Below the pieces are notes generated by a model that saw nothing but the letters and a program-made list of their open reading frames with translations, had not been told where the DNA came from and did no database searches. From Chlorobiaceae bacterium (GTDB lineage: Bacteria > Bacteroidota > Chlorobiia > Chlorobiales > Chlorobiaceae), in NCBI GenBank assembly GCA_013334565.1, contig JAAXXI010000006.1, positions 1-64,000 of the forward strand: a stretch of DNA of 64,000 bases. Direction: 5' to 3'. Both the position numbers and the translations under genes were made by a program. Each line of letters starts with the position of its first letter. Position 1 is the stretch's first letter. Below, piece by piece: positions 7,532 to 26,704 of the stretch.

Positions 7532-8020
7532 TCAGATAATCCAGGTATCCTGGCGCTCCATGATCAGTTTTTTCCTGTCATGGCTCTCCATTTCGATCCT
7601 GAACGCTTCGAGGCTCAGATTGATATCCGCGAAAAAGAAAACCAGCGTTCCGCTCAGACAGAACATGCTCGCCGTGAAAATTGCTGCGATGACCATCGGA
7701 AAGTCGAAATCGGCAAGTGCGCTGAAAAACAGCAGGATGATCAGGACCGAAGCACCGAAACAGGTCATGCATGCAAGCAGGATCGCCGTCCTGATATATC
7801 TCGCCCGTTTCCAGAGAATGGCGACCTCCCTGTTTATCCTCAGGACATACTGTTCCGGCTTCGATTCGAGGTCATCGAGGAGGGCCCGGGAGCGGTCGAT
7901 GATCCGCCCGAGCCTGTTTGTCATGGTAAGAAGAAGAAGACCGAGGCCTGAAATTAGGATCATAGGGCCGATCGAGGTCTGAAGCACAGGGACGATCTCC
8001 CTGAAGGTATGGATGGACAT
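7532..8020 (-). CDS. DUF2721 family membrane protein
   Basis: A 162-residue protein with three predicted membrane helices: GPMILISGLGLLLLTMTNRL (about 18-37), IRTAILLACMTCFGASVLIILL (about 76-98) and FPMVIAAIFTASMFCLSGTLVFFF (about 106-130). An NRLGRIIDRSRALLDDLE segment following the first helix is characteristic of DUF2721. It ends 9 bp from the end of the convergent xerD. No function is known for the family, and the neighbours do not suggest one. Confidence 0.82.
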   Translation of the reverse strand: MSIHTFREIVPVLQTSIGPMILISGLGLLLLTMTNRLGRIIDRSRALLDDLESKPEQYVLRINREVAILWKRARYIRTAILLACMTCFGASVLIILLFFSALADFDFPMVIAAIFTASMFCLSGTLVFFFADINLSLEAFRIEMESHDRKKLIMERQDTWII

Positions 8021-8174
8021 GAAACGTTTTCTTATTAATATTCCGAACTGCTCTGCACATCATGCGCTTTAAAATCAGCACACCGTAACAATTCAAAATA
8101 GAAATAGATAACTGCCGGGCAACCCCGGAATGATGTTTTTGCAAAAAAGACACCGATCCCCGAACGGGTTTCTT

Positions 8175-9578
8175 TCACTTTTTGAGTGAAGCCAGATCGA
8201 TAATTTCTCCCGCCTGGGGAATCGAAGCGGCCAGGCCAAGCTTGTCCATAATTTTCTGCCTGAAAATTTTCTTGACCTCCTCATCGCCATGCACCACATA
8301 AACCGACGGATTACTGCGAAAACCGCCCAGCCAGCGCAGCAGGTCATCCTGGTCGCCATGGGCAGACAATCCCCCGATCGTATGCAGGGTCGCCCTGACC
8401 GGTAATGACGTTCCGTGTATCGTCACCTGTTCGGCACCTTCGACAAGCTGCCTGCCGAGTGTGCCTTCCGCCTGGTACCCGGTGATGATCACCGAACATT
8501 CCGGGCGGCTGATGTTATGCTTGAGATGGTGCAGGACCCGTCCTCCGTTGCACATGCCGCTTCCTGCAATGATGATCGCGCCGGTCCTGATGGAATTGAT
8601 CGCCTGCGACTGGTCGGCCCTCGAGGTCATGTGCAGGTTTTTCAGCAACGGCATGCCTTTGTGACCGTTCCGGAACAACAGGGCTTCCTCGTCATAGAGC
8701 TCGGGATAGTCCCAGTAGATCCTGCTGGCCTCGATGGCCATGGGGCTGTCGAGAAAGACCTGCCAGCGCTCGAGGTTCCATGCATCGAAATTTTGGGCGA
8801 AAAGATAGAGCAGTTCCTGGCTTCTGCCGATGGCAAATGCCGGGATCAGGATATTGCCGCACCGATCGCATGCCGAACCGATGATCCCCCCGATTTCGGC
8901 AAGGGTCTCGGGAAGTTCCCGGTGAAGCCTGTCCCCATAGGTACTTTCGACAATCACCGCATCCGCTTCGTCGATTGCGTCCGGATCTTTCAGAATCGGG
9001 CTGCCATACTGGCCAAGATCGCCGCTGAATACGAGCTTTCTCGTTACTCCCCCTTCTTCGATCCATACCTCGACACAGGCAGAACCGAGAATATGCCCCG
9101 CGTCCTGGAAACGGACCGAAATGCCCGGAAGGATCTCCTTTTTCACATGGTAGGGCATCCCGGAGAGCGTTTCAAGGGCCCGGAGGGCGTCCTCGCGGGT
9201 GTAGAGCGGCTCGGCATGCAGGTCCTTGCGCGTTTCGGGTTGCTTCCTGCGGTAAGCTGCGTCGCTCTCCGCAAGCGATGCCGAATCAAGCAACAGCACT
9301 CTGCACAGGTCTATTGTCGCCTGCTGCGTATAGACAGGCCCTCTGAAGCCGTGTTTGACAAGAAGCGGCAGGCGTCCGGAATGATCGATGTGGCCATGGC
9401 TGAGGACTACAGCATCGAGCGATGAGGGATCGAAGGGAAATGAAGATCGGTTGAGGGCTTCCTCTTCTTTCTTCCCCTGGATGAGGCCGCAATCGAGAAG
9501 GAGAGTGCGACCGGCTGCCCTGAGGATATGGCATGAACCGGTAACTCTCTGTGTCGCGCCGTAAAACTGAAGTTCCAT
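8175..9578 (-). CDS. Metallo-beta-lactamase-fold hydrolase with beta-CASP domain (RNA-processing type)
   Basis: Likely a zinc-dependent nuclease of the CPSF-73/RNase J-like superfamily. Visible motifs are the HxHxDH zinc site in VVLSHGHIDHSG (about residue 59), an Asp in FSGDLGQYGSPI, a beta-CASP insert (about residues 200-370, with ESTYGDR and GSGMCNGGRVLHHL) and a C-terminal GLSAHGDQDDLL followed by the HGDEE segment. Its 467 residues fit the single-domain bacterial form without a KH domain. It stands alone between DUF2721 and the deaD terminator. The in vivo substrate is unknown. Confidence 0.85.
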   Translation of the reverse strand: MELQFYGATQRVTGSCHILRAAGRTLLLDCGLIQGKKEEEALNRSSFPFDPSSLDAVVLSHGHIDHSGRLPLLVKHGFRGPVYTQQATIDLCRVLLLDSASLAESDAAYRRKQPETRKDLHAEPLYTREDALRALETLSGMPYHVKKEILPGISVRFQDAGHILGSACVEVWIEEGGVTRKLVFSGDLGQYGSPILKDPDAIDEADAVIVESTYGDRLHRELPETLAEIGGIIGSACDRCGNILIPAFAIGRSQELLYLFAQNFDAWNLERWQVFLDSPMAIEASRIYWDYPELYDEEALLFRNGHKGMPLLKNLHMTSRADQSQAINSIRTGAIIIAGSGMCNGGRVLHHLKHNISRPECSVIITGYQAEGTLGRQLVEGAEQVTIHGTSLPVRATLHTIGGLSAHGDQDDLLRWLGGFRSNPSVYVVHGDEEVKKIFRQKIMDKLGLAASIPQAGEIIDLASLKK

Positions 9579-9763
9579 GGTTGCCTCCGTGTGTTCCTGA
9601 TTGGCTCTTGCCAGCGATGAGCGTACGATATTGCCGGATTCAGGAATGCCTCAGTATTTCCGAAACCGGCATTTTCATTACTGAAATATAATGATTAAAA
9701 CAGTCGGTAACGCAGGGGTGCGGATCGTCGAATGAGACAGGAAAGAAAACCTGTGAAGAAAAA

Positions 9764-9797
9764 AACAAAAAAAACGGGGAGATAAATCCCCCCGTCA
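9764..9797 (-). terminator. Rho-independent terminator after the DEAD-box helicase gene
   Basis: On the minus strand a stem of ACGGGG paired with CCCCGT, with an AT-rich loop, is followed directly by a run of T residues. It lies about 65 bp after the helicase stop codon. Confidence 0.8.
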
Positions 9798-9860
9798 TGA
9801 ACAGCTTTCTACGGACAAAACCGTATCGGAAAATGAAAAGACAGCGAAGCCTTTTGACGC

Positions 9861-11669
9861 TCAGCCTTTCCTCTTTTTCTTGTTCTGGCCGGTAAAAAAA
9901 GTTGCTTCTTTTCCTGCCGGTTTGAACGGTTTCCTTGGACTTTTCTTTGCTCCGTAAGGCGAATAGCGTTCCTGATCTTCCATTTTCGAAAGCCTGAGCT
10001 GACGGCCGCAGACCCTGACTTTACGAAGTTCGTGAAATACATTGTCGGGCATACCTTTGGGCAGTTCGACAGAACTGTAGGTGTCGCTGATTGAAATCTG
10101 GCCGACCATTTCGGGATCGAGTCCGATTTCGTTAATGATGGCGCCGAGAATATTTCCCGCCTTCACTCCGTGCTCGCTGCCGACCTCGATACGATACCGT
10201 TCTTTCGCCTCATCTCCGTAAGACTCGCCACGGGATCTCTTTTTTACCGGGCCACGATCCCTGTCCGGCCCCCGGTCCCTGTCGAAACCACGGTCCCTGT
10301 CAGTTCCCGGACGATCTTCACGAAATTTCGCCTTTTCCGGCTTGTTGGACAACAGAAGCGGCGTATCTCCCTGGAGCAGTGATGCAAGCGCTGCGGCAGC
10401 ATCGAGCACGGGAACGTCATGTTCGTGGCAGTAGCGTTCGACAAGGGTGGTATAGAACCCCAGGTCCTCGGCCGCAATCCGGTCGGTAATCCTCTGGTTG
10501 AATTTTGCAACCCTCCTGTCGTTTATCACTTCGGTGGATGGCAGCTCCATCAGTTCGATACGGCTGCGTGTCGCTTTTTCGATGGCATAGAGCATGCTTT
10601 TCTCCCTCGGCGACACGAAAAGGATGGCCTCGCCGCTCCGTCCAGCCCTTCCGGTGCGGCCGATACGATGCACATAGGATTCGGTGTCTGACGGGATATC
10701 GTAGTTGATGACGTGGCTGACCCTTTCCACATCGAGCCCTCGAGCCGCAACGTCGGTGGCGATAACAATGCTGAGGGTGCCGTCCTTCAGCTGCTCGACG
10801 GTCCTTTCACGCTGAGACTGGGGCATGTCCCCGTTCAGGGCTGACGCGGCGTATCCCCTCGCCTGGAGCTTTTCCGCCAGTTCCAGTGTCATGGTTTTCG
10901 TACGCACGAAAATGATGATGCCATCGAACTGTTCAAATTCAAGGATACGGGTAAGGATATCAAGCTTGTGACTGCCACCTACAACCCAGTACCGCTGGCG
11001 GATAGTCTCGACGGTAGCCGTTTTTTTCTGAATGGTTATTTCAGCCGGGTCTTTCAGGTACTTCTGGGCAATCCTGCGGATCTGCGCCGGCATGGTGGCT
11101 GAAAACAGCGCAACCTGGCGGCCTTCCGGGGTTTCGGAAAGAATCCATTCGACATCATCGATGAACCCCATGCGAAGCATCTCATCGGCCTCGTCAAGGA
11201 CGATGCACTGCAGCGAATGGAGGTTGAGCGAACCGCGGCGCATATGGTCCATGACCCTTCCCGGGGTTCCTACCACGACGTGAACGCCGCGTTTGAGCAT
11301 GCGGAGCTGTACACCGTAGTCCTGCCCGCCGTAAATCGGAAGCACGTGGAATCCCTTGAGGAACTCAGCGTATCGCTGGAACGCCTCGGCCACCTGGATG
11401 GCAAGCTCCCTTGTCGGAGCGAGTACGAGCGCCTGGGGTTCGGCCAGTGCAAGACGGATGTTCGCGAGGACGGGAAGGGCGAAGGCTGCCGTTTTACCGG
11501 TGCCTGTCTGGGCCTGCCCGAGCACATCGCGTCCTTCGAGAAGAAGCGGAATGGTCTGGGCCTGGATTGGTGTGGGGTTTTCGTAACCGACCTCTTCAAG
11601 CGCTTTCATGAGAGGCTGGGGCAGCTCGAGGCTGCGGAAATCCGTAAGTAACGGCTGATTGTCGTTCAT
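9861..11669 (-). CDS. deaD: DEAD-box ATP-dependent RNA helicase (DeaD/CsdA type)
   Basis: Unwinds structured RNA, typically in ribosome assembly and cold adaptation. From the ATG at 11669 (602 residues) the motifs come in order: Q motif (NPTPIQAQTIP), I (AQTGTGKT), Ia (PTRELA), II (VLDEADEML), III (SATM), IV-VI (IVATDVAARGLDVE, HRIGRTGRAGR). The C-terminus has an Arg/Asp-rich linker with repeated DRDRG units and then a DbpA-type RNA-binding domain (YRIEVGSEHGVKAGNILGAI). The start at 11669 begins right before the Q-motif domain. An in-frame ATG at 11849 would add 60 non-conserved residues. A strong terminator follows. Confidence 0.92.
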   Translation of the reverse strand: MNDNQPLLTDFRSLELPQPLMKALEEVGYENPTPIQAQTIPLLLEGRDVLGQAQTGTGKTAAFALPVLANIRLALAEPQALVLAPTRELAIQVAEAFQRYAEFLKGFHVLPIYGGQDYGVQLRMLKRGVHVVVGTPGRVMDHMRRGSLNLHSLQCIVLDEADEMLRMGFIDDVEWILSETPEGRQVALFSATMPAQIRRIAQKYLKDPAEITIQKKTATVETIRQRYWVVGGSHKLDILTRILEFEQFDGIIIFVRTKTMTLELAEKLQARGYAASALNGDMPQSQRERTVEQLKDGTLSIVIATDVAARGLDVERVSHVINYDIPSDTESYVHRIGRTGRAGRSGEAILFVSPREKSMLYAIEKATRSRIELMELPSTEVINDRRVAKFNQRITDRIAAEDLGFYTTLVERYCHEHDVPVLDAAAALASLLQGDTPLLLSNKPEKAKFREDRPGTDRDRGFDRDRGPDRDRGPVKKRSRGESYGDEAKERYRIEVGSEHGVKAGNILGAIINEIGLDPEMVGQISISDTYSSVELPKGMPDNVFHELRKVRVCGRQLRLSKMEDQERYSPYGAKKSPRKPFKPAGKEATFFTGQNKKKRKG

Positions 11670-12333
11670 GTTCTTTTCTGTTCCGGTCATTGTTTGATGA
11701 AATGCCCCGCCTGTAACGGGGGTGGCAGCAATGCAGGAAAGAAAAAAATGAAGATGGGAGGTTCTCCCGTAAGAACACCCGCACGGCCCGGAGGCGGCGC
11801 TGTTCCGACATCGTTTCGTAACAAAATCCCCGCCGGAGGATGGCTTCAACGCCTTTTTTCAGCCGGGAAATCCTTTCTTAGCATATACACCACGCACTCT
11901 AAAACGTCAGCATAGTACGATTTTATTTTGTGAAAGACGAATTTAACCATACTCACCCTTATTTTTTATACCCAGCCATGGCGGCACTCAATGTTACCGA
12001 AACGCTTTTTCATGCGCGCTTGTGGCGAGATGATGCCCTCTGCCGGAGAATGAGCGCGGGTCCCGGGCAGTGTCCTGCCTTTTCCCGGAAAGATATCCGT
12101 ATGCAACCCCTCATGTGTCAAGTGTTTCCCGATCCATCTCATTCGATGCGAAGGAATAAGGCAGCACGGAGAAAGCCTCCAGACCGAACTGCGCAGCCAT
12201 CAGGACAGGGAACCCGCTTTGCGGCGGTCTTCCAGCCAGTTGCAGGTATGGACTACAGTTATTTATATTTACTTTTATACCACCATAAAATCACACAGGA
12301 TTTCATCCCGGAATCATAAACGCGGAGGGCGAC
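11670..12333. other. Intergenic region between deaD and the first precursor gene
   Basis: About 660 bp. Its plus-strand reading frame at 11930-12319 has no recognisable domain, no good ribosome-binding site and biased composition, and I do not regard it as a gene. The region should hold the divergent promoters of deaD and of the first Nif11-type precursor. An AT-rich stretch at about 12255-12300 is the likeliest position of the latter. No structured RNA was recognised. Confidence 0.5.
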
Positions 12334-12585
12334 ATGTCCATAGACCTTGCAAAAGCGTTTCTGAAAGAAATTTCCGCTGACGAAGCATTGAAGCGTAAAC
12401 TCCTTGACTTGTCCACTGCCGCCGAACGGATGCAGCTGGCTGCCGAGAGAGGATTCGACTTTACACCTGAAGAGTTCAGGGATGCGCGTGCAGAATTATA
12501 CGAAGATGAGCTCGATACGATAGCCGGTGGCGGCATCTGCTGCTCAAATTCATGTGAGAACGAGACTCCCTGCGAACTCTACTGA
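12334..12585 (+). CDS. Nif11-type RiPP precursor peptide 1 (Cys-rich core)
   Basis: An 83-residue peptide with a helical Nif11-like leader (residues about 1-64: AKAFLKEISADEALKRKL, AAERGFDFTPEEFRDAR) ending in a double-glycine cleavage site at IAGG (residues 63-66). The predicted core is GICCSNSCENETPCELY, with four cysteines. The ATG follows GGAGGGCGAC, an excellent ribosome-binding site. Leader and cleavage site match what the C39-peptidase NHLM exporter further downstream would accept. The core shares CCxxxCENE with precursor 2, about 120 bp downstream. The modification is unknown. The only candidate enzyme in the window is the radical SAM protein at 16750-18204. Confidence 0.9.
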   Translation: MSIDLAKAFLKEISADEALKRKLLDLSTAAERMQLAAERGFDFTPEEFRDARAELYEDELDTIAGGGICCSNSCENETPCELY

Positions 12586-12705
12586 GAAGCTGTTTTGCAG
12601 TGTTACGCTCTCTTGCGGCAGGCATGCCTCTTCCGCAAACCGGCAAATTCACTGCAATAACGAAGCTTGAACCGTTTCGGTAATGAATCATAAGGAGAAT
12701 GCCTC

Positions 12706-12960
12706 ATGTCAGCAGAACATGCAACAGCATTTCTGAAGGAAATCGCCGATAACGAAACCGTCAGAAAGAAACTGTACGCCTGCTCCACAGCAGAAGAACG
12801 CAGGCATCTTGCCGCAGAACTGGGGTTTGAATTTACGGCTGAAGAGTTCAACGAAGCACGGTCCCGACTTTTCGAAAAAGAACTTGATTTCGTTTCCGGA
12901 GGCAGTTGCTGCGGTCATACCTGCGAAAATGAGGATTGTTCCGTTAATGGCATGGGGTGA
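12706..12960 (+). CDS. Nif11-type RiPP precursor peptide 2 (Cys-rich core)
   Basis: An 84-residue paralogue of precursor 1, collinear with it without gaps up to the GG site at residues 65-66 (FVSGG). The predicted core is SCCGHTCENEDCSVNGMG with four cysteines. AAGGAG lies just ahead of the ATG. Leader positions (AFLKEI, AAELGFEFTAEEFNEAR) agree with the Nif11-like leader family. The cores keep only CCxxxCENE and a last Cys, as expected where leader recognition is conserved and the product varies. It is probably transcribed with precursor 1, since no terminator is visible in the 120 bp between them. Confidence 0.9.
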   Translation: MSAEHATAFLKEIADNETVRKKLYACSTAEERRHLAAELGFEFTAEEFNEARSRLFEKELDFVSGGSCCGHTCENEDCSVNGMG

Positions 12961-13352
12961 ACGAAAGCTTTCCGCCGTCTGTGTCAGCTGATGAAAACGG
13001 GGGAATGCACCATGCACAAAGATCGCCCCTGCAAGAAAAAAGGGTTCCATCATCAACCGGCGTCTGGTTGACCGGATACCGGTATGGACCTCAGCGACCG
13101 GTATAACCGGCATTCCTGCCGTCCTGAAACCAATCAGTTACAATCCGGATGATAACGGACTTCCGGCAATGGTTCCCACCGGTAATTGGCGTCAAAACCT
13201 GCTACCGGACGGTAAATCCTTTCTCATGCTTATACACTGACGCACAATAAATCGCAAGAGCAGGACGATTGATGTTCTGAAAAAAATCCGTCGCGCAATC
13301 TGCCATCATAAAAGCGCACAGGGCAATGTTTTCCGACCTGATGCGTCAGGAT
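12961..13352. other. Intergenic region after precursor 2
   Basis: About 390 bp with no credible gene. It contains several ACCGGTAT/CCGGTA words with partial dyad symmetry (13070-13220) that could fold, but no clear terminator with a T-tract. It separates the two precursor genes from a convergent block of unrelated genes. Confidence 0.5.
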
Positions 13353-14081
13353 TTATTTCATGAACACGTATCTCTGTTTCCTGTGATCTTCAGGAACAAT
13401 CGTACCGAAATAAATCCCGTGCAATTCGAGGCCTCCGTCTCTGCGGAAGCGGTAAAAGCCCGAAAGGTCGCAATCCGCGGGCTTTTTGTTGCCGCCCTCG
13501 ATCGTAAACGCGATGGTTTTCTTTTTCAGGTCGAAGGTAAGGTGGCCCCAATAATCCTTGTAGACTTCGAACGGGTAAACGGTTACCGAAAAGCTGCGGT
13601 CAGGCCTTATGAAAAGCTCCCGGATGTTCCCTCCCTCCTCTTTCCAGTTTCCGATGAACGGATTGGCTTCCTTCGTGTAGACATACACACTGTTCTCCCG
13701 CACGGTAACGCCTTCCCGCAACGTCGCCCCGACCGAAAAAACCGTTCCGTCTTTCACGTCACGCCCGATCACGATCATGTTCCGCTGCCCGTCAAGCTGC
13801 ACGCCAGACGAAGGGGCCACATTCCAGGCAGGACTGACATCGACAGGCTTCCCGGCCATCGGGAAAAAGAAATCCCTGTTGACGGTCATCACCTTGAGCC
13901 TTATCGTATCGCCGGGACAGGCATAGATCCAGCCAGGGCTGTTGATGAGAAGGTCCTCACGCTCTTCCCTGGAAAGTGATGCCCATGTCACGGCATACAG
14001 CGAAACGGGAATACAGGGTGCAAGGATGAAAACCGCCTGGAGGAACGACATCTTGAGGAAGTATCTCAAATCGGGTATCAT
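13353..14081 (-). CDS. Hypothetical protein with N-terminal membrane anchor or signal
   Basis: From the ATG at 14081 (242 residues), or a second ATG at 14051, the protein starts with one hydrophobic segment (MSFLQAVFILAPCIPVSLYAV) and continues as a probably extracytoplasmic, beta-rich domain. I recognise no family. It is the third gene of a minus-strand set with thpR and another hypothetical gene 41 bp upstream. Neither start has a strong ribosome-binding site. A longer in-frame extension to 14261 overlaps the neighbouring gene and looks non-coding. Confidence 0.6.
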   Translation of the reverse strand: MIPDLRYFLKMSFLQAVFILAPCIPVSLYAVTWASLSREEREDLLINSPGWIYACPGDTIRLKVMTVNRDFFFPMAGKPVDVSPAWNVAPSSGVQLDGQRNMIVIGRDVKDGTVFSVGATLREGVTVRENSVYVYTKEANPFIGNWKEEGGNIRELFIRPDRSFSVTVYPFEVYKDYWGHLTFDLKKKTIAFTIEGGNKKPADCDLSGFYRFRRDGGLELHGIYFGTIVPEDHRKQRYVFMK

Positions 14082-14122
14082 CGTGATTCGTGATGAATGG
14101 TTCCTTGAAATTTCACGATTGT

Positions 14123-14581
14123 TCAAAGCCCTTTGCGGACACCAGGCATAATGGCACGGGGAATGCCGGGATACTTCCGGGCAAGTTTCCTGAAATATCC
14201 GGGACTGTCCAGACAATCGGGATTGTCCGGTTCGGTACAGGGGATCTCGACAATGGTCCATCTTCCCAGCTTTTTGTGCAGCAGGGCATAAAAATCCTCA
14301 TACCTTCCTTTTCCGTCCCCGGATTGCGGCAGCGTATGCACCCATGCCCATCCGCTGCCGACATTCATGGTTTTCACCACGAAGACGACGTCGAGCTCGT
14401 GGAGTTCCCTGATTTTCTGGCGCATCGCATCGAGGATTTCGCGGCGCTCCAGGCTTGCCGGTGCAGGGGTATGCACAGGCGGCGATATTGCGTATGCGTC
14501 CTGAAGAAGAATACGATCGAAAAATGCTCCCGCCGTCATGAAAACCGCGGCAAGTAAAAGATTGCCCATTGTTTTTTTCAT
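14123..14581 (-). CDS. Conserved hypothetical exported protein
   Basis: A 152-residue protein with a signal-like N-terminus (MKKTMGNLLLAAVFMTAGAFF) followed by a domain beginning ERREILDAMRQKIRE and containing FVVKTMNVGSGWAWVHTLP and YEDFYALLHKKLGRW. This pattern occurs in a widespread periplasmic family of unknown function. Its ATG overlaps the thpR stop (ATGA at 14578-14581), so the two are translationally coupled. There is no visible catalytic motif, and no function can be proposed. Confidence 0.75.
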   Translation of the reverse strand: MKKTMGNLLLAAVFMTAGAFFDRILLQDAYAISPPVHTPAPASLERREILDAMRQKIRELHELDVVFVVKTMNVGSGWAWVHTLPQSGDGKGRYEDFYALLHKKLGRWTIVEIPCTEPDNPDCLDSPGYFRKLARKYPGIPRAIMPGVRKGL

Positions 14582-15141
14582 TGCAATCCATCGTTTTTTT
14601 GTCCGAATGGCGCTTCGCATAAAACCCTGTACTCGGCTCCGGAAGGTTTCAGAATGGATTCATAAAGGCAAAGCCTTCGAAAGGTCGCTGTCCAGGAAAC
14701 AGGCTCTTCGAGCTTCATGCGCGCAAGGTCATGCTCATCTTCATGCCGCACGCGCGCAATCGTCAGGTGGAGCAGGAACGGCCGGTGTTCAACGGGAACA
14801 AGCGGCAGCCGGGCGCTCAGTTCGTCGCGCAGGGCGGGAAAAAATGAAACCGTCTTTCCGACAGCCCACACAAGACGGGGCCTTGAAGGTACGGGACCGG
14901 GCGTGACCATGGTAAAGGTTGCATCGGCAGCCAGAAACCCTGAAGCCGTTTCCCCCAGAATACCGCAAATGCTGCCGGGGTTTTGGGACTCCCAGGGCGG
15001 AACAACCGTAAGGTGAAGGTAATCCGGCCTTGTCCATCGGACACGGAGCCCGGCATGCCGTTTACGGAATTCCATGACCTGGGCAATCAGATCCTCCCCC
15101 GCGGGAATACCGATGAATACCCTCTTCGGACGTTTATCCAC
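14578..15141 (-). CDS. thpR: RNA 2',3'-cyclic phosphodiesterase (LigT/ThpR family)
   Basis: A 2H phosphoesterase acting on 2',3'-cyclic phosphate RNA ends. Both signature motifs are present: HLTV in YLHLTVVPPW (about residues 43-46) and HLTI in LLHLTIARVR (about residues 125-128). The typical N-terminal RVFIGIPAGEDL is also present. At 187 residues it has normal length. It is the first gene of a minus-strand set and overlaps the next gene by 4 bp. Its partners give no clue to a specific role. Confidence 0.88.
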   Translation of the reverse strand: MDKRPKRVFIGIPAGEDLIAQVMEFRKRHAGLRVRWTRPDYLHLTVVPPWESQNPGSICGILGETASGFLAADATFTMVTPGPVPSRPRLVWAVGKTVSFFPALRDELSARLPLVPVEHRPFLLHLTIARVRHEDEHDLARMKLEEPVSWTATFRRLCLYESILKPSGAEYRVLCEAPFGQKNDGLQ

Positions 15142-15354
15142 AGAACAGGTTCCTGCTTTTTATTGCGATTGTTCTCTCCGGGATCGTTTACCTGAAATTA
15201 TGCAAAGTCGGGCACATTCCAGCCGGAGGTAAAAATCCGTTTCCGCCGGAGAGTGTTAAACCGGGGCAAATGCGTTATCTTTCATGGAAAGACAGGAGTT
15301 TTTCCATGTCCCGTCGAAAATCGCACGGTCAACCTGAACCAAAAATGTACGGCC

Positions 15355-15816
15355 ATGTTCAAGATCACTACCATTCTCTGCCCGGTTGATTTCTCCGATG
15401 CTTCTCTCAAGGCGGTCAGCTACGCAAAAGAATTCGCCGCGGTTTCAGGTGCGTCGATTTTCCTGCTTCACATCGTGGAACCGGTGCCGATGCCGCCGGT
15501 GGACACATCGCTGAACTATATGGAAGTGGAGGAAGTGCTTGAAAAAGCTGCGAAAGAAGATCTCGACGCCCTTATAAAGTCAATGAAAGCAGAAGGATCA
15601 AACGTCGAAGGAACAATGGAGATCGGGAAGGCCGCGGATATCATCCTCGACAAAGCGGCGGAACTGAACGCCAATTTCATCATCATGGGCTCGCATGGAC
15701 GAAAAGGCTTCAACCGGCTCATCATGGGCAGCGTGGCCGATGCCGTCATCCGCAGGTCCGACTGCCCGGTCCTGATCGTCAAGAACAGAGAAAAAGAGTT
15801 CATCGACGAAAAGTGA
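15355..15816 (+). CDS. Universal stress protein UspA family, ATP-binding type
   Basis: A 153-residue single-domain Usp. It starts with the beta-strand ITTILCPVDFSDASLKA and has the nucleotide-binding signature GSHGRKGFNRLIMGSVADAVIRRSDCPVLIVK (G-2x-G-9x-G-S/T pattern) near the C-terminus. The ATG at 15355 directly precedes the domain. An in-frame start at 15253 adds non-conserved residues. It stands alone in the interruption of the RiPP locus. A second Usp gene lies at 42569-43072. A stress role is inferred from the family only. Confidence 0.88.
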   Translation: MFKITTILCPVDFSDASLKAVSYAKEFAAVSGASIFLLHIVEPVPMPPVDTSLNYMEVEEVLEKAAKEDLDALIKSMKAEGSNVEGTMEIGKAADIILDKAAELNANFIIMGSHGRKGFNRLIMGSVADAVIRRSDCPVLIVKNREKEFIDEK

Positions 15817-15876
15817 CTCGCACTCCCGGAGCATGGTAAAGCAGGTCCGGCAGCAATTTCAGCAAAACCTGCAGTT

Positions 15877-15921
15877 GTTAGGAAAACCTTGTCAGTCGTT
15901 TTCCTTCTAACGGGACTTTTT
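15877..15921 (+). terminator. Probable terminator hairpin after uspA
   Basis: GTTAGGAAAAC (15877-15887) can pair with GTTTTCC (15898-15904) and CTAAC (15907-15911), and a TTTTT run follows four bases later. It lies 60 bp after the uspA stop. Confidence 0.5.
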
Positions 15922-16111
15922 ATCTGGCATTACGGCTTATTCATCCTTGCAGGACCCCTTTCCGGAACCCTGCCGGTCCTGCTTCGGAGAAAACTGAACG
16001 GCAGGTACGACCTCCATGAAAGCCGGAAAATGACTCCTCCCGCAAGACACTACGCCCTCTTTCCTGACTGCGTGCTCATGTTTCCGTATTCGCCTGCACG
16101 GGATTGTTGCG

Positions 16112-16130
16112 TAATATTATTGCTATATTT
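16112..16130 (+). promoter_or_regulatory. Candidate extended -10 promoter of precursor 3
   Basis: TAATATTATTGCTATATTT lies about 72 bp upstream of the third precursor gene. It contains TTGCTATATT, which fits an extended -10 element (TGnTATAaT). Almost the same sequence occurs ahead of the radical SAM maturase gene (18243-18260, minus strand). No good -35 is visible at the standard distance, which is normal for extended -10 promoters. Confidence 0.5.
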
Positions 16131-16202
16131 CAGGGTTAACCTCTCCCTACATCCGGGAGCGTTGAATACAACCGCCGATCCTTACCGGCAAAGGAGTCCG
16201 TC

Positions 16203-16430
16203 ATGTCCATAGAAGCTGCAAAAGCCTGCATCGGTAAAATGAAAAGCGACGAAAGTTTCAGGGAAACGATCATGTCCTTGAAGGATACTGACGCACGCCT
16301 GAAGGCAATCCGGGATGCCGGTTTTACCTGTACGGCCGAGGAACTGCTTCAGATAAGTTCGGAGATCGATCCTTCGGATATCGTAGCGGGCAACTTCGGA
16401 ATGTCCGTCGTCAACATCATGATCTGTTAG
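16203..16430 (+). CDS. Nif11-type RiPP precursor peptide 3 (divergent core)
   Basis: A 75-residue peptide whose leader (SIEAAKACIGKMKSDESF, IRDAGFTCTAEELLQIS) belongs to the same Nif11-like family as precursors 1 and 2. The cleavage site is VAG (residues 61-63) instead of GG, and the predicted core is only NFGMSVVNIMIC with a single Cys. AAAGGAGT lies upstream of the ATG. A decayed copy of this gene follows at 16657-16743, and the convergent maturase gene follows that. A peptide so unlike the other two may be modified differently, or may be losing function. Confidence 0.8.
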   Translation: MSIEAAKACIGKMKSDESFRETIMSLKDTDARLKAIRDAGFTCTAEELLQISSEIDPSDIVAGNFGMSVVNIMIC

Positions 16431-16656
16431 CTTATTTTCCCGACCATTTCCGTAAATGATGCCGCGTATTTCCAGCCGACGGACTCACGGTCAGCTTTTT
16501 CGGCCGGCATGCGTTGTGCGAGCCATACGGCTTTCAGATATCCGATTTCGCCAGCCGGATAGAAACAATACGGAAAAATGGCAAGTCGGTATCTTTTTCG
16601 CATAAGACAACCCGCCTGTACGTATCCTCATTACGCGATGAGAATTAATTGTATAA

Positions 16657-16743
16657 CGTCCATCGAAAACAGCAAAAGCCTGCATCGCCAGATTGAAATC
16701 AGAGAAAGCAGTCAGGGAGCGAGGAAGTAAGAGCCCTTGCTGA
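16657..16743 (+). pseudogene. Decayed Nif11-type precursor gene remnant
   Basis: ACGTCCATCGAAAACAGCAAAAGCC (written in two parts, ACGTCCATCGAAA and ACAGCAAAAGCC) matches the start of precursor 3 (ATGTCCATAGAAGCTGCAAAAGCC). The start codon has become ACG and one base is inserted. In the frame after the insertion it reads AKACIARLKSEKAVRE, against AKACIGKMKSDESFRE in precursor 3, then diverges and stops at 16743. This is visible directly in the sequence. It is too short and broken to be made as a peptide. Confidence 0.75.
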
Positions 16744-16749
16744 AAGCGC

Positions 16750-18204
16750 TCAGTCATGTTCCAGCATCGACTCAAGAGGGTTTTCCCCCAAATTCAGATT
16801 TCCCCTTTCCGGCTGCACCATTCTGTAACCGTTCAATTTCTCCGTTCCGGAACCTTTCCCGAGCAGCTGATTGCAGATTTCGAGGCTTCTCCGGGTATCG
16901 ATGTATGCCTCAAGAAACGGCACCAGGGAGTTCTTCAGCACAGAACAGTATTCCATGCCTTCCTGTCCGTAATATTTAGCCCGCAGGCGCTTGCTTGCGC
17001 AACCGCCCCCGCAGAGCGGCAATACCGGGCATTCCATGCAGGTTTTGTCGGTGAACGGATCGACGCCCGTACTGTACCTGGCAACCATTTCCCGGTTGCT
17101 GACCGGTTCAGGGGCAAAGATGGAACCGACAACCATCTCCCTGTTGCCGACATCTTCAAGGCATTTGTATATCTCGCCCGCCGGACCTATCACATACCCG
17201 TAGCGGGATGTCGCCAGACAGGTATTCGAATATCCGGGATAAGGAAAAAATCCGCCCCTGGGAACGATACCCTTCCGGCTGTAACTCTCGAGCAGAAATT
17301 CCGACCATTCGTCCGGACACAGGCCGCAACGGAAATGATAGGGGTGGATCGGATACGTATTGACATGGCCTGGATAAACCGACACTTTTTTACCGTTGAG
17401 ACGCTGCATGAGTTCCTCCCTGAGTGAAGAGAACTCATCCATGTTGGACCTGTCGACATTTATCCTCACGGCCAGTTTCCCCCGCCATCGAGAGTTCATG
17501 AGCAGGTCGATGTTTTCCATGATTTTCCGGTAGGTCGGACCACCTCCGTTCAGCATTCTCCTTCCGTCATGGACTGCTTCTCTGCCGTCGAGCGTGACCT
17601 GGATATAACCGATTCTGAGTTCGTCCAGCACCGCTATCCACGTTTCATCGAGCAGGTAGGCGTTTGTCACCATCCCTGCATTGCCGTAACCGGGAAAAAG
17701 CTCCAGGAACCGGCATGTCAACTCCCTGACAATATCGAGAGAGAGGGTCGGTTCACCACCGAACCAGGTGACACTGAGGTTCCTGATGTCTTTCTGCTTT
17801 TTTACGAAGGAAACAAGCTTTTCAATCGTCTCCCTGTCCATGGTTTTCACTTCGCCCCTGCCGTGCTCGTAGCAATAAATGCAGCTGAAATTGCATGAGA
17901 GTGTCGGGCAGATGCACAAACCGAGGGTGGAAGTCCCGAAGCATGCCGCATTCCGGTTGTAATGCAGCTGCATCAGCGACGAGGCATCTTCCTCACTTGC
18001 GGCAAGGAAACCTTTTTCTTCGAGCAGCTTCAGGAATACGGAATCCGTTTCATCCGGAGGGTTTTCCACACCGTCACGTAACGCTTTCGACCGTTCGTAA
18101 TGCCGGCGGTCCAGCTCAAGCATCGTCCCTGACAGTGCATTGAAAAGAAAGAAGCCAAACTTTTCCGAAGAAAAAAGCGTGTTGTAACGGGACCAGGGCT
18201 TCAT
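16750..18204 (-). CDS. Radical SAM/SPASM peptide maturase
   Basis: Probable modifying enzyme for the Nif11-type peptides. From the ATG at 18204 (484 residues, AGGAAATCC upstream), an N-terminal about 90-residue segment is followed by the [4Fe-4S] motif CNFSCIYCYE (CxxxCxxC), the radical SAM core (VTWFGGEPTLS, MVTNAYLLDE, VTLDGREAVHDGRR) and a C-terminal SPASM domain with the auxiliary-cluster cysteines (CLATSRYG, YKCLEDVGNRE, CMECPVLPLCGGGC, EYC). Such enzymes form thioether or C-C crosslinks or epimerise residues. Which applies here cannot be read from the sequence. It faces the precursors and is divergent from the export genes. Confidence 0.88.
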   Translation of the reverse strand: MKPWSRYNTLFSSEKFGFFLFNALSGTMLELDRRHYERSKALRDGVENPPDETDSVFLKLLEEKGFLAASEEDASSLMQLHYNRNAACFGTSTLGLCICPTLSCNFSCIYCYEHGRGEVKTMDRETIEKLVSFVKKQKDIRNLSVTWFGGEPTLSLDIVRELTCRFLELFPGYGNAGMVTNAYLLDETWIAVLDELRIGYIQVTLDGREAVHDGRRMLNGGGPTYRKIMENIDLLMNSRWRGKLAVRINVDRSNMDEFSSLREELMQRLNGKKVSVYPGHVNTYPIHPYHFRCGLCPDEWSEFLLESYSRKGIVPRGGFFPYPGYSNTCLATSRYGYVIGPAGEIYKCLEDVGNREMVVGSIFAPEPVSNREMVARYSTGVDPFTDKTCMECPVLPLCGGGCASKRLRAKYYGQEGMEYCSVLKNSLVPFLEAYIDTRRSLEICNQLLGKGSGTEKLNGYRMVQPERGNLNLGENPLESMLEHD

Positions 18205-18242
18205 GGATTTCCTGACAGGCAGGTTGATGTTTGGTATTCGAT

Positions 18243-18260
18243 AAATATAGCAATAAATTA
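18243..18260 (-). promoter_or_regulatory. Candidate extended -10 promoter of the maturase gene
   Basis: On the minus strand TAATTTATTGCTATATTT lies 38 bp upstream of the maturase ATG. It matches the sequence ahead of precursor 3 except for a one-base gap. The shared TTGCTATATT suggests co-expression of peptide 3 and enzyme. Confidence 0.5.
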
Positions 18261-18356
18261 CACTAAACAAGGCTGCGACCGGGAAGCGCCAGATTTGGCA
18301 AGACAAGCTCGCACCCATTACAGGCAATATCCATTCTCCTGTTCACTTGTCCCTGC

Positions 18357-19472
18357 ATGGCTATCGAGTTCAGAAAGGAAGCCCTGAAAAAGCTCAATTC
18401 GCCGGATGACCTTGACAGCCTCATGCCGGTGACGGACCGGAAAGGCTGGATAGCTCTGCTATCGACGGCCCTTTTCATCGTCGCGGTGCTTGTCTGGGGA
18501 TTCCAGGGCAAGATATACACGACGGTAGACGGGCAGGGAATCACCATGAGCACGGAAACCATACAGTCTATCGCCGCAAGATCGACGGGCTTCGTGACCG
18601 GTCTGTCCGTCAGGGACGGGCAGACCATCCAGGAAGGTGAAATCCTGGCGATCATCGAGCAACCGGAACTGAAACAGGAATTTCTTTCGGCATTTGCCAC
18701 CTATGAGTACCTCTCTTCCCATCAGGCTGAAAAACGGTATTTCCTGAAAAACCAGATCACACAGCTTGAGAATAAAGTTCAGGACACTCACCGGCAATCC
18801 GGCGGCAGCTTCCCCGGAAAAAGCCTCTCCTCGGAACAGTCGCTCATGGAGCTGAAAAACAAACTCTACGTTCTGGACAAGGAGCTTTCCGACGCCGAGC
18901 GTAACCTCGATAAATCAAGGGAAAACTATAAATGGCGTTCCGCGGTTATCGCACCGTTCACCGGGAGGGTCACTGAAATAAAAACCACGAACGGCCAGGA
19001 AGTTTCCCCGGGTTTCGAGATCCTTCAGGCCGAACCCTTCAACAGCCAGCTCCATCAGGATGTCAGGCTCGACCTCTATGTTTCGTCGGGCAACGCGAAA
19101 AAGATCCGCAAAGGCATGGAAGTCTACGTATCACCGTCCACGGTAAAACCGGAGGAGTACGGCTATATCGTCGGAAAAGTCTTCTATGTCAGCGAATACC
19201 CGGTCTCCGAACAATCGATTGCCGCCGATATCAGGAACGAAGGCCTCGCCCGCAACTTTGCTTCGGGAAGCCCTCCCTACAAAGTCACCATAAGGCTGAT
19301 CAGGGACCCTGCTAACAGGAGCGGATTCAGGTGGACTTCGGGAAGGGACCCGCAGACAACCGTCACTTCAGGAATACTCTGCAAAGGGAAAATCATTGTT
19401 GAAGAACAATCTCCGGCAGAGCTGGTCATTCCGTCCCTGAAAAAAATGGTTCTGGGAGACACCGGTTCCTGA
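18357..19472 (+). CDS. NHLM-type bacteriocin secretion protein, HlyD-like membrane fusion protein
   Basis: Periplasmic adaptor that links the inner-membrane ABC exporters to an outer-membrane channel. At 371 residues it has one N-terminal membrane helix (about residues 41-60, GWIALLSTALFIVAVLVWGF), a biotinyl-lipoyl half (IAARSTGFVTGLSVRDGQTIQEGEILAIIEQPE), a coiled-coil hairpin (about 115-190) and a second lipoyl half (VIAPFTGRVTEIKTTNGQEV). Together with the two following ABC genes it forms the standard three-gene NHLM export set. That set is known to accompany nitrile-hydratase-type and Nif11-type leader peptides. No TolC gene is adjacent. Confidence 0.88.
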   Translation: MAIEFRKEALKKLNSPDDLDSLMPVTDRKGWIALLSTALFIVAVLVWGFQGKIYTTVDGQGITMSTETIQSIAARSTGFVTGLSVRDGQTIQEGEILAIIEQPELKQEFLSAFATYEYLSSHQAEKRYFLKNQITQLENKVQDTHRQSGGSFPGKSLSSEQSLMELKNKLYVLDKELSDAERNLDKSRENYKWRSAVIAPFTGRVTEIKTTNGQEVSPGFEILQAEPFNSQLHQDVRLDLYVSSGNAKKIRKGMEVYVSPSTVKPEEYGYIVGKVFYVSEYPVSEQSIAADIRNEGLARNFASGSPPYKVTIRLIRDPANRSGFRWTSGRDPQTTVTSGILCKGKIIVEEQSPAELVIPSLKKMVLGDTGS

Positions 19473-19610
19473 ACAGGAGGTTCAAAGAGCTGCAACCGTT
19501 TGAACGACGGGTTAGTGCAATGCTCGGGGAGTTTTGTCAATTCATCGTGCAGAAAACATGAACAGCCGGCAAAATCCATTCACCATCGATTCCCCGGGAG
19601 GGTCCCTCGA

Positions 19611-21791
19611 ATGAGTTTCATGCTTTTTCCCACCGAAAAGCTCTGGGATGAAAAACGGGTAAGGACACCGACTATCCTGCAGATGGAAGCGACAGAATGC
19701 GGTGCGGCCTCGCTGGGAATGATCCTTGCATGGTTCGGCCTTTATGTGCCGCTTGAACAGCTCCGCATCGACTGCGGGGTGTCTCGGGACGGCAGCAAGG
19801 CGAGCAACCTGATCGTAGCCGCCAGAAAATACGGGCTCGAGGCAAAAGGCTGCCGGCTGGACATCGACGACCTGCAAAGGAAAAACCTCCCGATGATCCT
19901 GTTCTGGAACATGTACCATTTCGTGGTTCTCGAGGGATTCAGGAAAGGGTGTTACTATATCAACGACCCTGCGAGAGGAGAGCGTAAAGTGAGCCTGAAA
20001 GAATTCAGCGACTCCTATTCGGGAATAGCCATCGCCTTCGATAAAACCGCAACATTCAGGAGCGGCGGACAGCCTTTCAACCTGTTCGAAGCATTGAAAA
20101 AACGGTTGCCCGGCCTTGAAAAGGCGATGACGTACATTATCCTTGCCAGCTTGCTGCTCGTCGTTCCCGGACTTCTTGTTCCATCCTTTCTGAGGATCTA
20201 CATCGATTATGTCATCGTGAAGGGAACGACCGGCTGGATACAGCCCCTCATGATCGGCATGCTGCTTACCGCATGTCTCCAGGGCGCATTGACCTGGCTG
20301 CAGCAGTTCTATATACTCAGGGCCGAGACAAAACTGGCCATGGTATCATCGGCAAAATTCTTCAACCATGTCTTCGCGCAGCCCATGAGGTTTTTCACCA
20401 TGCGCCAGGCAGGTGAAATATCCAACAGGGTCCAGCTGAACGACCAGGTTGCGACCCTGCTCGCTGGAGAGCTTTCGACAAGGTCGCTCAATGTCCTTCT
20501 TATGGTCTTCTATGCGCTCCTGATGCTCCGGTATGACATCATCCTGACGCTTGGCGCAGTCGTTATCGCGCTGATCAATGCATCTGCTCTCTTCTACGTC
20601 TCCCGCAAGCGCATCAGCCTGAACCAGAAATTCATGCAGGATAACGGCAAGCTGATGGGAACGACATTTCACGGCATACGGACCATCGAAAGCCTGAAAG
20701 CTTCCGGCAATGAACAGGATTTTTTTTCAAGATGGGGCGGGCTTTTCGCCAACATGGTGATCGGCAGGCAGGAACTGCAGACAGCCACGGTTTTCCTGCT
20801 CGCACTTCCTCCGTTCCTGCAGTCGATCGGCAATATTTCCATCCTCACCCTCGGCGGGCTGCGGGTCATGGAAGGCAATCTCTCCATAGGCATGCTGGTG
20901 GCGTTCCAGAGCCTGCTGCTTTCATTTCTCGCGCCAGTCAACCAGATGGTCAGCCTCGGTCAGAAACTGCAGGATACCAGGGCCAGCCTGCAGCGCCTCG
21001 ATGACGTCACGAACAACGAGAGCGAACTCTCCATCGAAGACGACACCGCGGAGGCAACGAAATTCAGAAGGCTGGAAGGGAATGTCGAACTGAAAAATAT
21101 CACGTTCGGCTACAACCTTCTCGATCCGCCCCTGATTGAAAATTTTTCACTTGTGATCAGTCCCGGCAATCGCGTCGCGCTTGTCGGAGGTTCCGGCTCC
21201 GGGAAATCCACAATCGCGAAACTTGTCGCGGGGCTTTATGAACCCTGGACCGGCGAGGTGCTGTTCGACGGAATACCGAGAGAGAAGATACCCGGAAAGC
21301 TGCAGGCTGCCAACATCAGCATGGTTGACCAGGAAATCAGCCTCTTCGAAGGAACGATAGCGGAAAATATCGCCATGTGGGACATGACGATACCTCATGA
21401 TGATATCGTGCTTGCAGCCAGGGATGCGGCAATTCACGAAATGATCATATCCAGGACAGGCGGCTACCAGTCCCGTCTCGGAGAGGGAGGCAGAAACATA
21501 AGCGGCGGTCAGCGGCAGAGGATAGAAATCGCCAGGGCACTCTCCCAGAACCCGTCCATCCTCATCCTTGACGAAGCGACAAGCGCCCTGGACCCGCCGA
21601 CAGAAAAGATTATCGATATGAACATCCGAAACCGCGGTTGTTCATGCCTTATCGTCGCCCACCGGCTGAGCACCATCCGTGACTGCGACGAAATTATCGT
21701 ACTCGATTCGGGAAAGGTCGCTGAACGGGGCACCCATGACTCGCTCATGGCGGCAGGCGGCATCTATGCGGGACTTGTGGCAAAAGGTTAG
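19611..21791 (+). CDS. NHLM-type ABC exporter with C39 leader peptidase
   Basis: Cleaves leaders at GG-type sites and exports the peptide. From the ATG at 19611 (726 residues, GGGAGGG upstream), the N-terminal C39 peptidase has Cys30 in QMEATECGAASLGMI, His103 in MYHFVVLEGF and Asp119 in YYINDPARG, a complete catalytic set. A six-helix exporter membrane domain (about 160-440) and an ABC ATPase follow: Walker A GGSGSGKS near 526, signature ISGGQRQR near 630, Walker B ILILDEATSALD. An upstream in-frame start at 19500 lacks a ribosome-binding site and adds non-conserved residues. Confidence 0.92.
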   Translation: MSFMLFPTEKLWDEKRVRTPTILQMEATECGAASLGMILAWFGLYVPLEQLRIDCGVSRDGSKASNLIVAARKYGLEAKGCRLDIDDLQRKNLPMILFWNMYHFVVLEGFRKGCYYINDPARGERKVSLKEFSDSYSGIAIAFDKTATFRSGGQPFNLFEALKKRLPGLEKAMTYIILASLLLVVPGLLVPSFLRIYIDYVIVKGTTGWIQPLMIGMLLTACLQGALTWLQQFYILRAETKLAMVSSAKFFNHVFAQPMRFFTMRQAGEISNRVQLNDQVATLLAGELSTRSLNVLLMVFYALLMLRYDIILTLGAVVIALINASALFYVSRKRISLNQKFMQDNGKLMGTTFHGIRTIESLKASGNEQDFFSRWGGLFANMVIGRQELQTATVFLLALPPFLQSIGNISILTLGGLRVMEGNLSIGMLVAFQSLLLSFLAPVNQMVSLGQKLQDTRASLQRLDDVTNNESELSIEDDTAEATKFRRLEGNVELKNITFGYNLLDPPLIENFSLVISPGNRVALVGGSGSGKSTIAKLVAGLYEPWTGEVLFDGIPREKIPGKLQAANISMVDQEISLFEGTIAENIAMWDMTIPHDDIVLAARDAAIHEMIISRTGGYQSRLGEGGRNISGGQRQRIEIARALSQNPSILILDEATSALDPPTEKIIDMNIRNRGCSCLIVAHRLSTIRDCDEIIVLDSGKVAERGTHDSLMAAGGIYAGLVAKG

Positions 21792-24104: not shown

Positions 24105-25064
24105 ATGAAAAAACCCGAAATCGGCAGACTCCCCCTGGTCCAGCTTTCCATCATTTTTGCCGTGCTGCTGACATCGCTCGTCATATCCTGGACGATGCTG
24201 AGCCGACAAGCCATGAACAGCGGCAGAAACCTCATCAACCTGAGCATGCTCCACATTGCCGACCAGATCAGGCAGAACGACCAGACGCTCTATACCCTCA
24301 GGCTCGAGTCCGACGCCCAGTCGATCGCAAAAGCACGCGCTTTTGCCTACATGATACAGCAGGACCCTTCCCTGATCCACGACGAGCAGAAACTCGAAGA
24401 GATCCGAAAGCTCCTCGATGTCGATGAACTCCACGTCAGCGACAAGAACGGCATCCTCGTCGGCAGCACGATCCACAGTTTCATAGGCTATAACTTCGCA
24501 TCCGATCCGCAGTCGAAGCCGTTCCTGCTCGCCATTTACTACAGGGATTTCAAACTGGCCCAGCCTCCGATGCCGAAAGGTTTCGACAAAACCATATTCC
24601 AGTACACCGGCGTTTCACGTCTTGACGAACCGGGAATCGTTCAGATCGGGTACAAGCCGGAAAGGCTCTACCGGGCGCTCGCAGCCGCAGATATCGCAAA
24701 AGTCGCCTATGGCTACAGGACAAGGCAGACGGGCACGATCATTGTCACGGACCTCAACGGCAAAATCCTGAGCAGTACGGATGGCAGGTTCACAGGAAGG
24801 GATGTATCCGCTTACGGATTTCCCCGGAACTGCTTCAGGGGACCGGAAGGGATGTTCACTGAAACCATCGGCGGACTGAAATCGCTCTTCATCTACAGGG
24901 TCTATGACGATTATATGATCATCGGCTCACTCGGGCTCGAAGAGCTCTACCAGCGCAGGAACCAGTCGATGATCGTCCAGGTCGTGACCAGCATCGCTGT
25001 TTTTTCCCTGATGACGCTGTTTCTCATCCGGAAAAACAATAAATCAGAAACCGTGTCAGCCTGA
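24105..25064 (+). CDS. Cache-domain sensor-like membrane protein lacking an output domain
   Basis: A 319-residue protein with an N-terminal helix (LVQLSIIFAVLLTSLVISWTM), an extracytoplasmic double-Cache-like region (residues about 35-285, including AKARAFAYMIQQDPSL, LLDVDELHVSDKNGIL and GYRTRQTGTIIVTDLNGKIL) and a C-terminal helix (MIVQVVTSIAVFSLMTLFLI) followed by only about 12 cytoplasmic residues. In related proteins this sensor part precedes a SpoIIE-type phosphatase, which is absent here. It lies 49 bp after the second exporter, so it probably belongs to the export operon. It may sense the peptide or a signal for it, but how it would transmit is unknown. Confidence 0.75.
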   Translation: MKKPEIGRLPLVQLSIIFAVLLTSLVISWTMLSRQAMNSGRNLINLSMLHIADQIRQNDQTLYTLRLESDAQSIAKARAFAYMIQQDPSLIHDEQKLEEIRKLLDVDELHVSDKNGILVGSTIHSFIGYNFASDPQSKPFLLAIYYRDFKLAQPPMPKGFDKTIFQYTGVSRLDEPGIVQIGYKPERLYRALAAADIAKVAYGYRTRQTGTIIVTDLNGKILSSTDGRFTGRDVSAYGFPRNCFRGPEGMFTETIGGLKSLFIYRVYDDYMIIGSLGLEELYQRRNQSMIVQVVTSIAVFSLMTLFLIRKNNKSETVSA

Positions 25065-25603
25065 CGGGCACTCCTGTTTATTGCTGTGGGAAGCTCGAGT
25101 GCAAGGCGAAGAAAATCCTGACAATATCGGGATATACTTCGTAACCGGATTGTACTCGTGGCAGATGAGGTTTTTGATCCCGACTCGTCGGAACCAACCC
25201 GAGCTACAGTGCTTCGAAACAAATACACAGAGGTTCCCTGATGCGATATCACTGGCTGGTTGCAGGCTGACTTCAGCCGAACGGTCCAAACTGCCACCGC
25301 CATTCTATTATCGTGTCCGGCAATGATCTGCCGACAGCAACCTATTGCCTGCACGCCCCTTTACACCTAAAATAAAAAAGAAACTAACTCGAAAGCATAC
25401 ATAATACTTTCCAATTATTTTTATCTTTCCTAAATTATTTAGTCCCATCAACAAAAACCCTATTTACCTGATTCGTCAAAGCGCATCTCGCTATACCATC
25501 AAATAAATAACGATCGACAAAGGAAAAGCATGCCCGGAAAAGAGGCAGATCCCTGTTCAGGTTTGGGAAGCCCAGGATTATGAAGCAATAAACAAACGCC
25601 GCC
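25065..25603. other. Intergenic region between the RiPP export operon and the SBP/GTPase/ATPase unit
   Basis: About 540 bp. I see no credible gene: the short reading frames on both strands lack ribosome-binding sites and recognisable motifs. The second half (about 25370-25530) is strikingly AT-rich compared with its surroundings and may hold the promoter of the next operon. No riboswitch was recognised. Confidence 0.5.
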
Positions 25604-26674: not shown

Positions 26675-26704
26675 ACATCTATCGATCATACAGAAAATTT
26701 TACC

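Follow-up and report, generated by a model that had tools for sequence, protein, structure and literature searches.

The two precursor genes

Two collinear genes in a contig of a Chlorobiaceae bacterium encode short Cys-rich peptides with similar leaders, which raises the question of what these peptides are, which enzyme modifies them and how the product leaves the cell. We analysed a window of 64,000 nucleotides, the whole stretch of DNA under study, in which the two genes are located as follows:

12334–12585, + strand: Nif11-leader RiPP precursor 1, 83 aa (TIGR03798 55.3 bits, Pfam Nif11 49.7 bits)
12706–12960, + strand: Nif11-leader RiPP precursor 2, 84 aa (TIGR03798 58.1 bits, Pfam Nif11 56.2 bits)

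Both genes start with ATG and carry GGAG/AGGAG-type ribosome-binding sites shortly 5′ of the start. Precursor 1 consists of the leader MSIDLAKAF...LDTIAGG and the core GICCSNSCENETPCELY, precursor 2 of the leader MSAEHATAF...LDFVSGG and the core SCCGHTCENEDCSVNGMG. Both exceed the curated cut-off of 32.3 bits for TIGR03798 (leader_Nif11), and in both a double-Gly site is followed by a core, the two features that define a precursor of this family. The original prediction of two Nif11-type RiPP precursors was thus confirmed with exact coordinates, as was the proposed host, a green sulfur bacterium: the named close relatives are Chlorobiaceae and Chlorobium MAGs. In the literature searched, no characterised peptide with either core was found, again as predicted.

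The gapless alignment of the two precursors through GG at residues 65-66 was reproduced. Just after GG the cores are offset by one residue. Each contains four Cys, and they have the noted CC-x3-CENE and a later Cys in common, the spacing of which differs (x2 in one, x1 in the other). When residues were shuffled within the cores, six or more identities without gaps arose in 6,127 of 200,000 trials (p ∼0.03). Taken alone, the similarity of the pair is only modestly above chance, because both cores are rich in Cys and Glu. An Rfam search of positions 11500-17000 gave no match, a scan for promoters and terminators gave no signal better than chance, and no relative of precursor 2 was found among plasmid records.

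A conserved core element in related precursors

A profile search revealed 12 Nif11 peptides in the same genome. Cores resembling those of the window precursors are encoded on three of its other contigs, C37 (NCCMQSCESESGMCGFDG), C31 (GTCCGHTCEQDCSCDISGCEVDAVVE) and C65 (GWACGTTCGTECGKLSQTVCG), and we refer to all such peptides as CC-type precursors. Among 98 genomes of the order, matches above 100 bits beyond the own genome were found only in G036, G040 and G076, which match Chlorobium sp. L304-S-6D, Chlorobiaceae W9_148 and Chlorobiaceae LaPlata-b bin-1930.

All 13 CC-type precursors of these four Chlorobiaceae genomes contain C-x3-C-x2-[D/E], compared with one of the 64 other Nif11 precursors at the loci examined, 27 of which have at least two Cys in the tail. 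The residue following the second Cys is E, except for G in two of the 13. Judged from this alignment, the invariant element is C-x3-C-[EG]-x-[DE], of which CENE is one version, and we dropped CENE as the conserved motif. The CENE pattern of the original prediction is therefore real in the window pair but is not what the family keeps. Its expectation of conservation in related strains held for the motif, which is retained in 13 of 13, but not for the window genes themselves, which are missing from the corresponding locus of the closest relative. At the level of sequence comparison, we regard the family (13/13 against 1/64) and not the window pair as the convincing test of the core motif. The CC-type precursors apparently form a small, undescribed family.

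The single match outside this family is located in a Bacillota MAG (L030, 9670-10249), where two Nif11 precursors with the cores CGHLC and CGHVC adjoin a TIGR04064-type radical-SAM gene. A further CC-type precursor on C37 (L012, 3385-3734) is broken and has an intact relative in G076 (C89). Between the orthologous precursors at L012 2750-3004 (C37) and L102 2479-2733 (G076), 25 of the 66 codons for the leader are different, whereas all 18 core codons are identical, even at synonymous sites. Since high identity extends some way beyond the stop codon, a recombination tract as well as selection is possible as the cause of the core identity.

The NHLM export locus downstream

Nif11-like leaders had also been said to direct export by NHLM systems, and such a cluster is present 5-12 kb downstream of the precursors, together with a third Nif11 peptide and a radical-SAM gene:

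16203–16430, + strand: third Nif11-leader peptide, 75 aa, of another subfamily (TIGR03798 57.8 bits)
16750–18327, – strand: NHLM-cluster peptide maturase of the radical SAM/SPASM type (best match TIGR04463, 212 bits, cut-off 525)
18357–19472, + strand: NHLM HlyD-type periplasmic adaptor (TIGR03794 277.8 bits, cut-off 156.2)
19500–21791, + strand: NHLM ABC transporter with N-terminal C39 peptidase, predicted to cleave and export (TIGR03796 1063 bits, cut-off 853; Peptidase_C39 119.8 bits)
21848–24055, + strand: second NHLM ABC transporter subunit (TIGR03797 901 bits, cut-off 709)

The adaptor and both ABC proteins score above their cut-offs. The first ABC protein does so in 21 of the 98 genomes, including all four with CC-type precursors. 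C39 peptidases are described to recognize L-12/E-8/L-7 and V/I-4 (PMC6363468); before GG, precursor 1 shows L-12/E-8/L-7/I-4 and precursor 2 L-12/E-8/L-7/V-4. From gene content and recognition residues, the window genes very probably encode RiPP precursors exported by the NHLM system.

Directly after the second ABC gene, 24105-25064 (+) encodes a 319-aa protein with no match in Pfam or NCBIfam. Nucleotide matches to G036, G040 and G076 cover most or all of this gene, and its product could be a membrane protein of NHLM systems that has so far gone unrecognised. Elsewhere in the genome, a separate C39-peptidase ABC gene lies beside another radical-SAM/SPASM gene (L108, 5587-9361, on contig C26), possibly representing a second peptide system.

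Candidate modifying enzymes

The closest candidate for the modification of both precursors is the enzyme encoded at 16750-18327, which is peptide-maturase-like, 3.8 kb away and part of the same NHLM locus. It might introduce other chemistry, such as alpha-thioethers or C-C links. We consider this unlikely in view of its distribution: orthologues (E < 1e-100) are present in roughly two dozen of the 98 genomes, most of them without CC-type precursors, which accompany the enzyme in only four. The enzyme also has a Nif11 peptide of its own at 16203-16430, which lacks a C-x3-C-x2-[DE] core and is its likely substrate. An equivalent peptide is found at the same place next to the enzyme in G076, and there the locus retains an enzyme of this type yet lacks the two precursors. 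Finally, a tree (with a long-branch warning) and profile scores set the window enzyme apart from the C37 and C31 types; the enzymes that adjoin CC-type precursors belong to another subfamily. It is probably not the main modifier of these peptides.

TIGR04064-like radical-SAM/SPASM genes adjoin CC-type precursors on the own contigs C37 and C31 and in G076 (C89 and C154), G036 (C14) and G040 (C48). The association of a maturase with Cys-containing precursors that is characteristic of ranthipeptides is thus seen at six sites in four genomes, though not next to the window genes. Across the 98 genomes, a TIGR04064-like enzyme scoring above 300 bits is encoded by all four precursor-bearing genomes and otherwise only by G063, whose enzyme (614 bits) belongs to the canonical TIGR04064 subfamily and goes with a different peptide. 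The co-occurrence of enzyme and precursors gives a Fisher p of 1.4e-6, a value that ignores kinship although the four genomes are related. Radical-SAM loci on contigs C26 and C77 were rejected as candidates; they have other contexts and do not adjoin CC-type precursors.

These associations also bear on the idea that the cores contain no enzymatic C-S link but only disulfides, or use C-x3-C and the acids as ligands of a metal or an Fe-S cluster, and that the secreted peptides serve as small carriers of metal or in redox reactions. Four Cys per core and the acidic residues make metal binding conceivable, and the window genes have no maturase next to them. Such carriers are nevertheless rather improbable, given the SPASM maturase at all six sibling sites and the way in which the TIGR04064-like enzyme tracks the precursors across the 98 genomes.

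The C37 enzyme matches most of the profiles of TIGR04064 (384 bits), PapB (232), the SCIFF maturase (195) and QhpD (161), and the C31 enzyme scores 318 bits with TIGR04064 and 193 with PapB. Both remain below the TIGR04064 cut-off of 518.7 bits, making them homologous to but not equivalogs of this family, and below the PapB cut-off of 340 bits. The best solved relative of the C37 enzyme is 5wgg/5why (E 5.6e-43), which we take to be the SCIFF maturase CteB. The remote radical-SAM enzyme carries CxxxCxxC and SPASM-type Cys motifs. An AlphaFold model of the C37 enzyme, based on seven sequences, is of low confidence (pLDDT 52).

In G036 (C2), a GNAT acyltransferase gene lies between radical-SAM 1 and radical-SAM 2. 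The own contig C37 ends with the GNAT gene and C31 starts with radical-SAM 2; because these ends fit the G036 order, the two contigs probably adjoin over an assembly gap. The GNAT-type acyltransferase (FeeM-like, Acetyltransf_5; L012, 109-951) adjoins radical-SAM 1 on C37 and is found in only three of the 98 genomes, all with CC-type precursors. It recalls GNATs that acylate other RiPPs; most CC-type cores are without Lys. Overall, the genomic comparison argues for modification of the window precursors by the remote radical-SAM pair and not by the local enzyme, which we consider likely.

Predicted chemistry of the product

PapB joins Cys to the C-beta of Asp or the C-gamma of Glu and tolerates Cys-Xn-Asp with n = 0-6 (PMC9413430), and the link made by CteB is to C-gamma (PMC11002830, review). 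The invariant acid three residues past the second Cys would therefore be a natural acceptor in CC-type cores. LanC-like domains (PF05147) and YcaO (PF02624) gave no match in the four genomes, whereas the controls did match; the own genome is 87% complete and G036 is rated 100%. A lanthionine route and an azole/TOMM route were therefore both rejected, and such chemistry appears unlikely.

With PapB/CteB-like enzymes, an acid acceptor and neither LanC nor YcaO, a ranthipeptide-like product is our best guess, and the product likely behaves like one. For the links themselves, non-alpha Cys-Asp/Glu thioethers are predicted with a confidence that we would place midway between doubt and acceptance. 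The analogy is not exact: the PapA motif has x3 spacing, whereas x2 separates the second Cys from the invariant acid here. Because the remote enzymes score below the TIGR04064 and PapB equivalog cut-offs, their regiochemistry may also differ. The thioether product of the original prediction remains plausible, and its disulfide-linked alternative is possible though less probable. The calculated core masses are 1863.678 (precursor 1) and 1844.589 (precursor 2) when unmodified, 1861.663 and 1842.574 with one link, and 1859.647 and 1840.558 with two.

The precursor-bearing segment and its history

Comparison with the closest relative, G076, revealed that the precursors lie on a segment that is absent from its syntenic site. 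The segment and its surroundings contain the following features:

11829–11935, + strand: left copy of the direct repeat on either side of the segment, the copies of which have diverged (repeat comparison)
11944–13209, no strand: precursor-bearing segment, absent from the syntenic site in G076 (contig C55; blastn)
12970–13112, + strand: degraded 5′ remnant of an IS3-type transposase OrfA just 3′ of precursor 2 (71-73% identity to OrfA starts)
13175–13283, + strand: right copy of the flanking direct repeat (repeat comparison)

In blastn comparisons with L107 of G076, the adjoining stretches 7803-11943 and 13210-15828 show 93.7% and 90.6% identity, and the 1.27 kb between 11943 and 13210 are missing. 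The repeats share 70% identity over 50 nt (11829-11878 and 13175-13224), and 11841-11935 matches the right copy with 71% over 95 bases. At this site, the G076 sequence resembles a left copy fused to a right copy. Both a deletion by recombination in G076 and an insertion in the window strain would fit this arrangement. Within the own genome, the repeat occurs only at this segment, and a cassette element around all precursors was rejected on this ground. The OrfA remnant, assigned to the IS3 family by eye from the sequences, matches OrfA start regions in G036 (C12 and C1) and G040 (C70), in the latter with an integrase-core ORF as neighbour. A second segment missing from G076, 25363-27991, encodes an SBP_bac_6-type binding protein, a CobW/HypB-like GTPase and a portion of an ABC ATPase.

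As the window genes are missing from the nearest relative, they are dispensable or newly arrived. They could even be unused leftovers, decaying orphans that recombination or an insertion sequence had brought in or duplicated, as the absence in G076, the flanking repeats, the adjacent IS3 remnant and the visibly broken precursor on C37 would suggest. In the window pair, however, reading frames, ribosome-binding sites, GG, C39 recognition residues and core motif are all intact, and decay seems a quite unlikely account.

A model for a dispersed RiPP system

We instead propose that the window genes encode substrates of a RiPP system that is dispersed over the genome of this green sulfur bacterium. 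The Nif11 leaders would recruit the radical-SAM/SPASM maturases encoded on C37 and C31, together with the GNAT-type acyltransferase. Acting in trans, the maturases would join Cys sulfurs to non-alpha side-chain carbons of the conserved acids in a PapB-like manner. The C39-ABC transporter of the NHLM locus would then cleave after GG and export the cross-linked core, which would probably serve as a bacteriocin or signal towards neighbouring cells. Such an antibacterial or signalling role is a guess, to which we give slightly less than even credence. The explanation as a whole, with remote maturation and NHLM export, is evenly poised between right and wrong in our estimate; that no maturase of the right type lies beside the window genes speaks against it.

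More tentatively, these systems could represent a new ranthipeptide-like class of the Chlorobiaceae, in which two types of radical-SAM/SPASM enzymes (C37 and C31), perhaps with the GNAT, act in trans on Nif11 precursors that are scattered over the genome and share an invariant C-x3-C-x2-[D/E]. Overlapping Cys-to-acid macrocycles would then result, a topology not yet described. We hold this to be doubtful.

Comparison with known systems

No characterised RiPP from green sulfur photosynthetic anaerobes was found in the literature searched. Nif11/NHLM precursors as such are known from this group, for example from Chlorobium luteolum and C. phaeobacteroides (PMC2887384), and share leader family, GG and NHLM genes in the locus with the window (Haft et al. 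2010, PMC2887384). Those systems were paired mainly with cyclodehydratases or LanM, whereas neither LanC nor YcaO was found in the Chlorobiaceae studied here, and their core motif is different.

The family TIGR04064, “nif11-like peptide radical SAM maturase” (Haft 2011, PMC3023750), likewise has a radical-SAM/SPASM gene beside a Nif11 peptide as sole candidate maturase. With 310-409 bits, the Chlorobiaceae enzymes stay below its cut-off of 518.7 and branch separately, and their precursors are scattered in the genome. Canonical members go with short cores that lack C-x3-C-x2-[DE], with the one exception in L030. The ranthipeptide systems freyrasin/PapB and thermocellin/CteB (PMC9413430, PMC11002830) resemble ours in enzyme homology and in Cys close to Asp/Glu acceptors. 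They differ in that our precursors have a Nif11 leader and, in place of six CX3D motifs, usually one C-x3-C-x2-[DE] unit, and in that the links are predicted here.

The prochlorosins (Nif11 leader, ProcM; PMC10783134) show the same layout of scattered precursors with one leader type and remote enzyme(s). There, however, the enzyme is a LanM and the cores are hypervariable, whereas the enzymes here are radical-SAM proteins and one core motif is constant, with one orthologous pair even combining an identical core with a diverged leader. If our reading is correct, it provides a radical-SAM counterpart of the prochlorosin layout with a constant core motif, and supplies an uncharacterised branch of Nif11 radical-SAM chemistry with a defined substrate motif and the enzymes that match it. 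The original observation holds up and can now be stated more precisely: it concerns a RiPP of the Nif11/NHLM/radical-SAM kind that has a specific core motif and candidate enzymes on other contigs.
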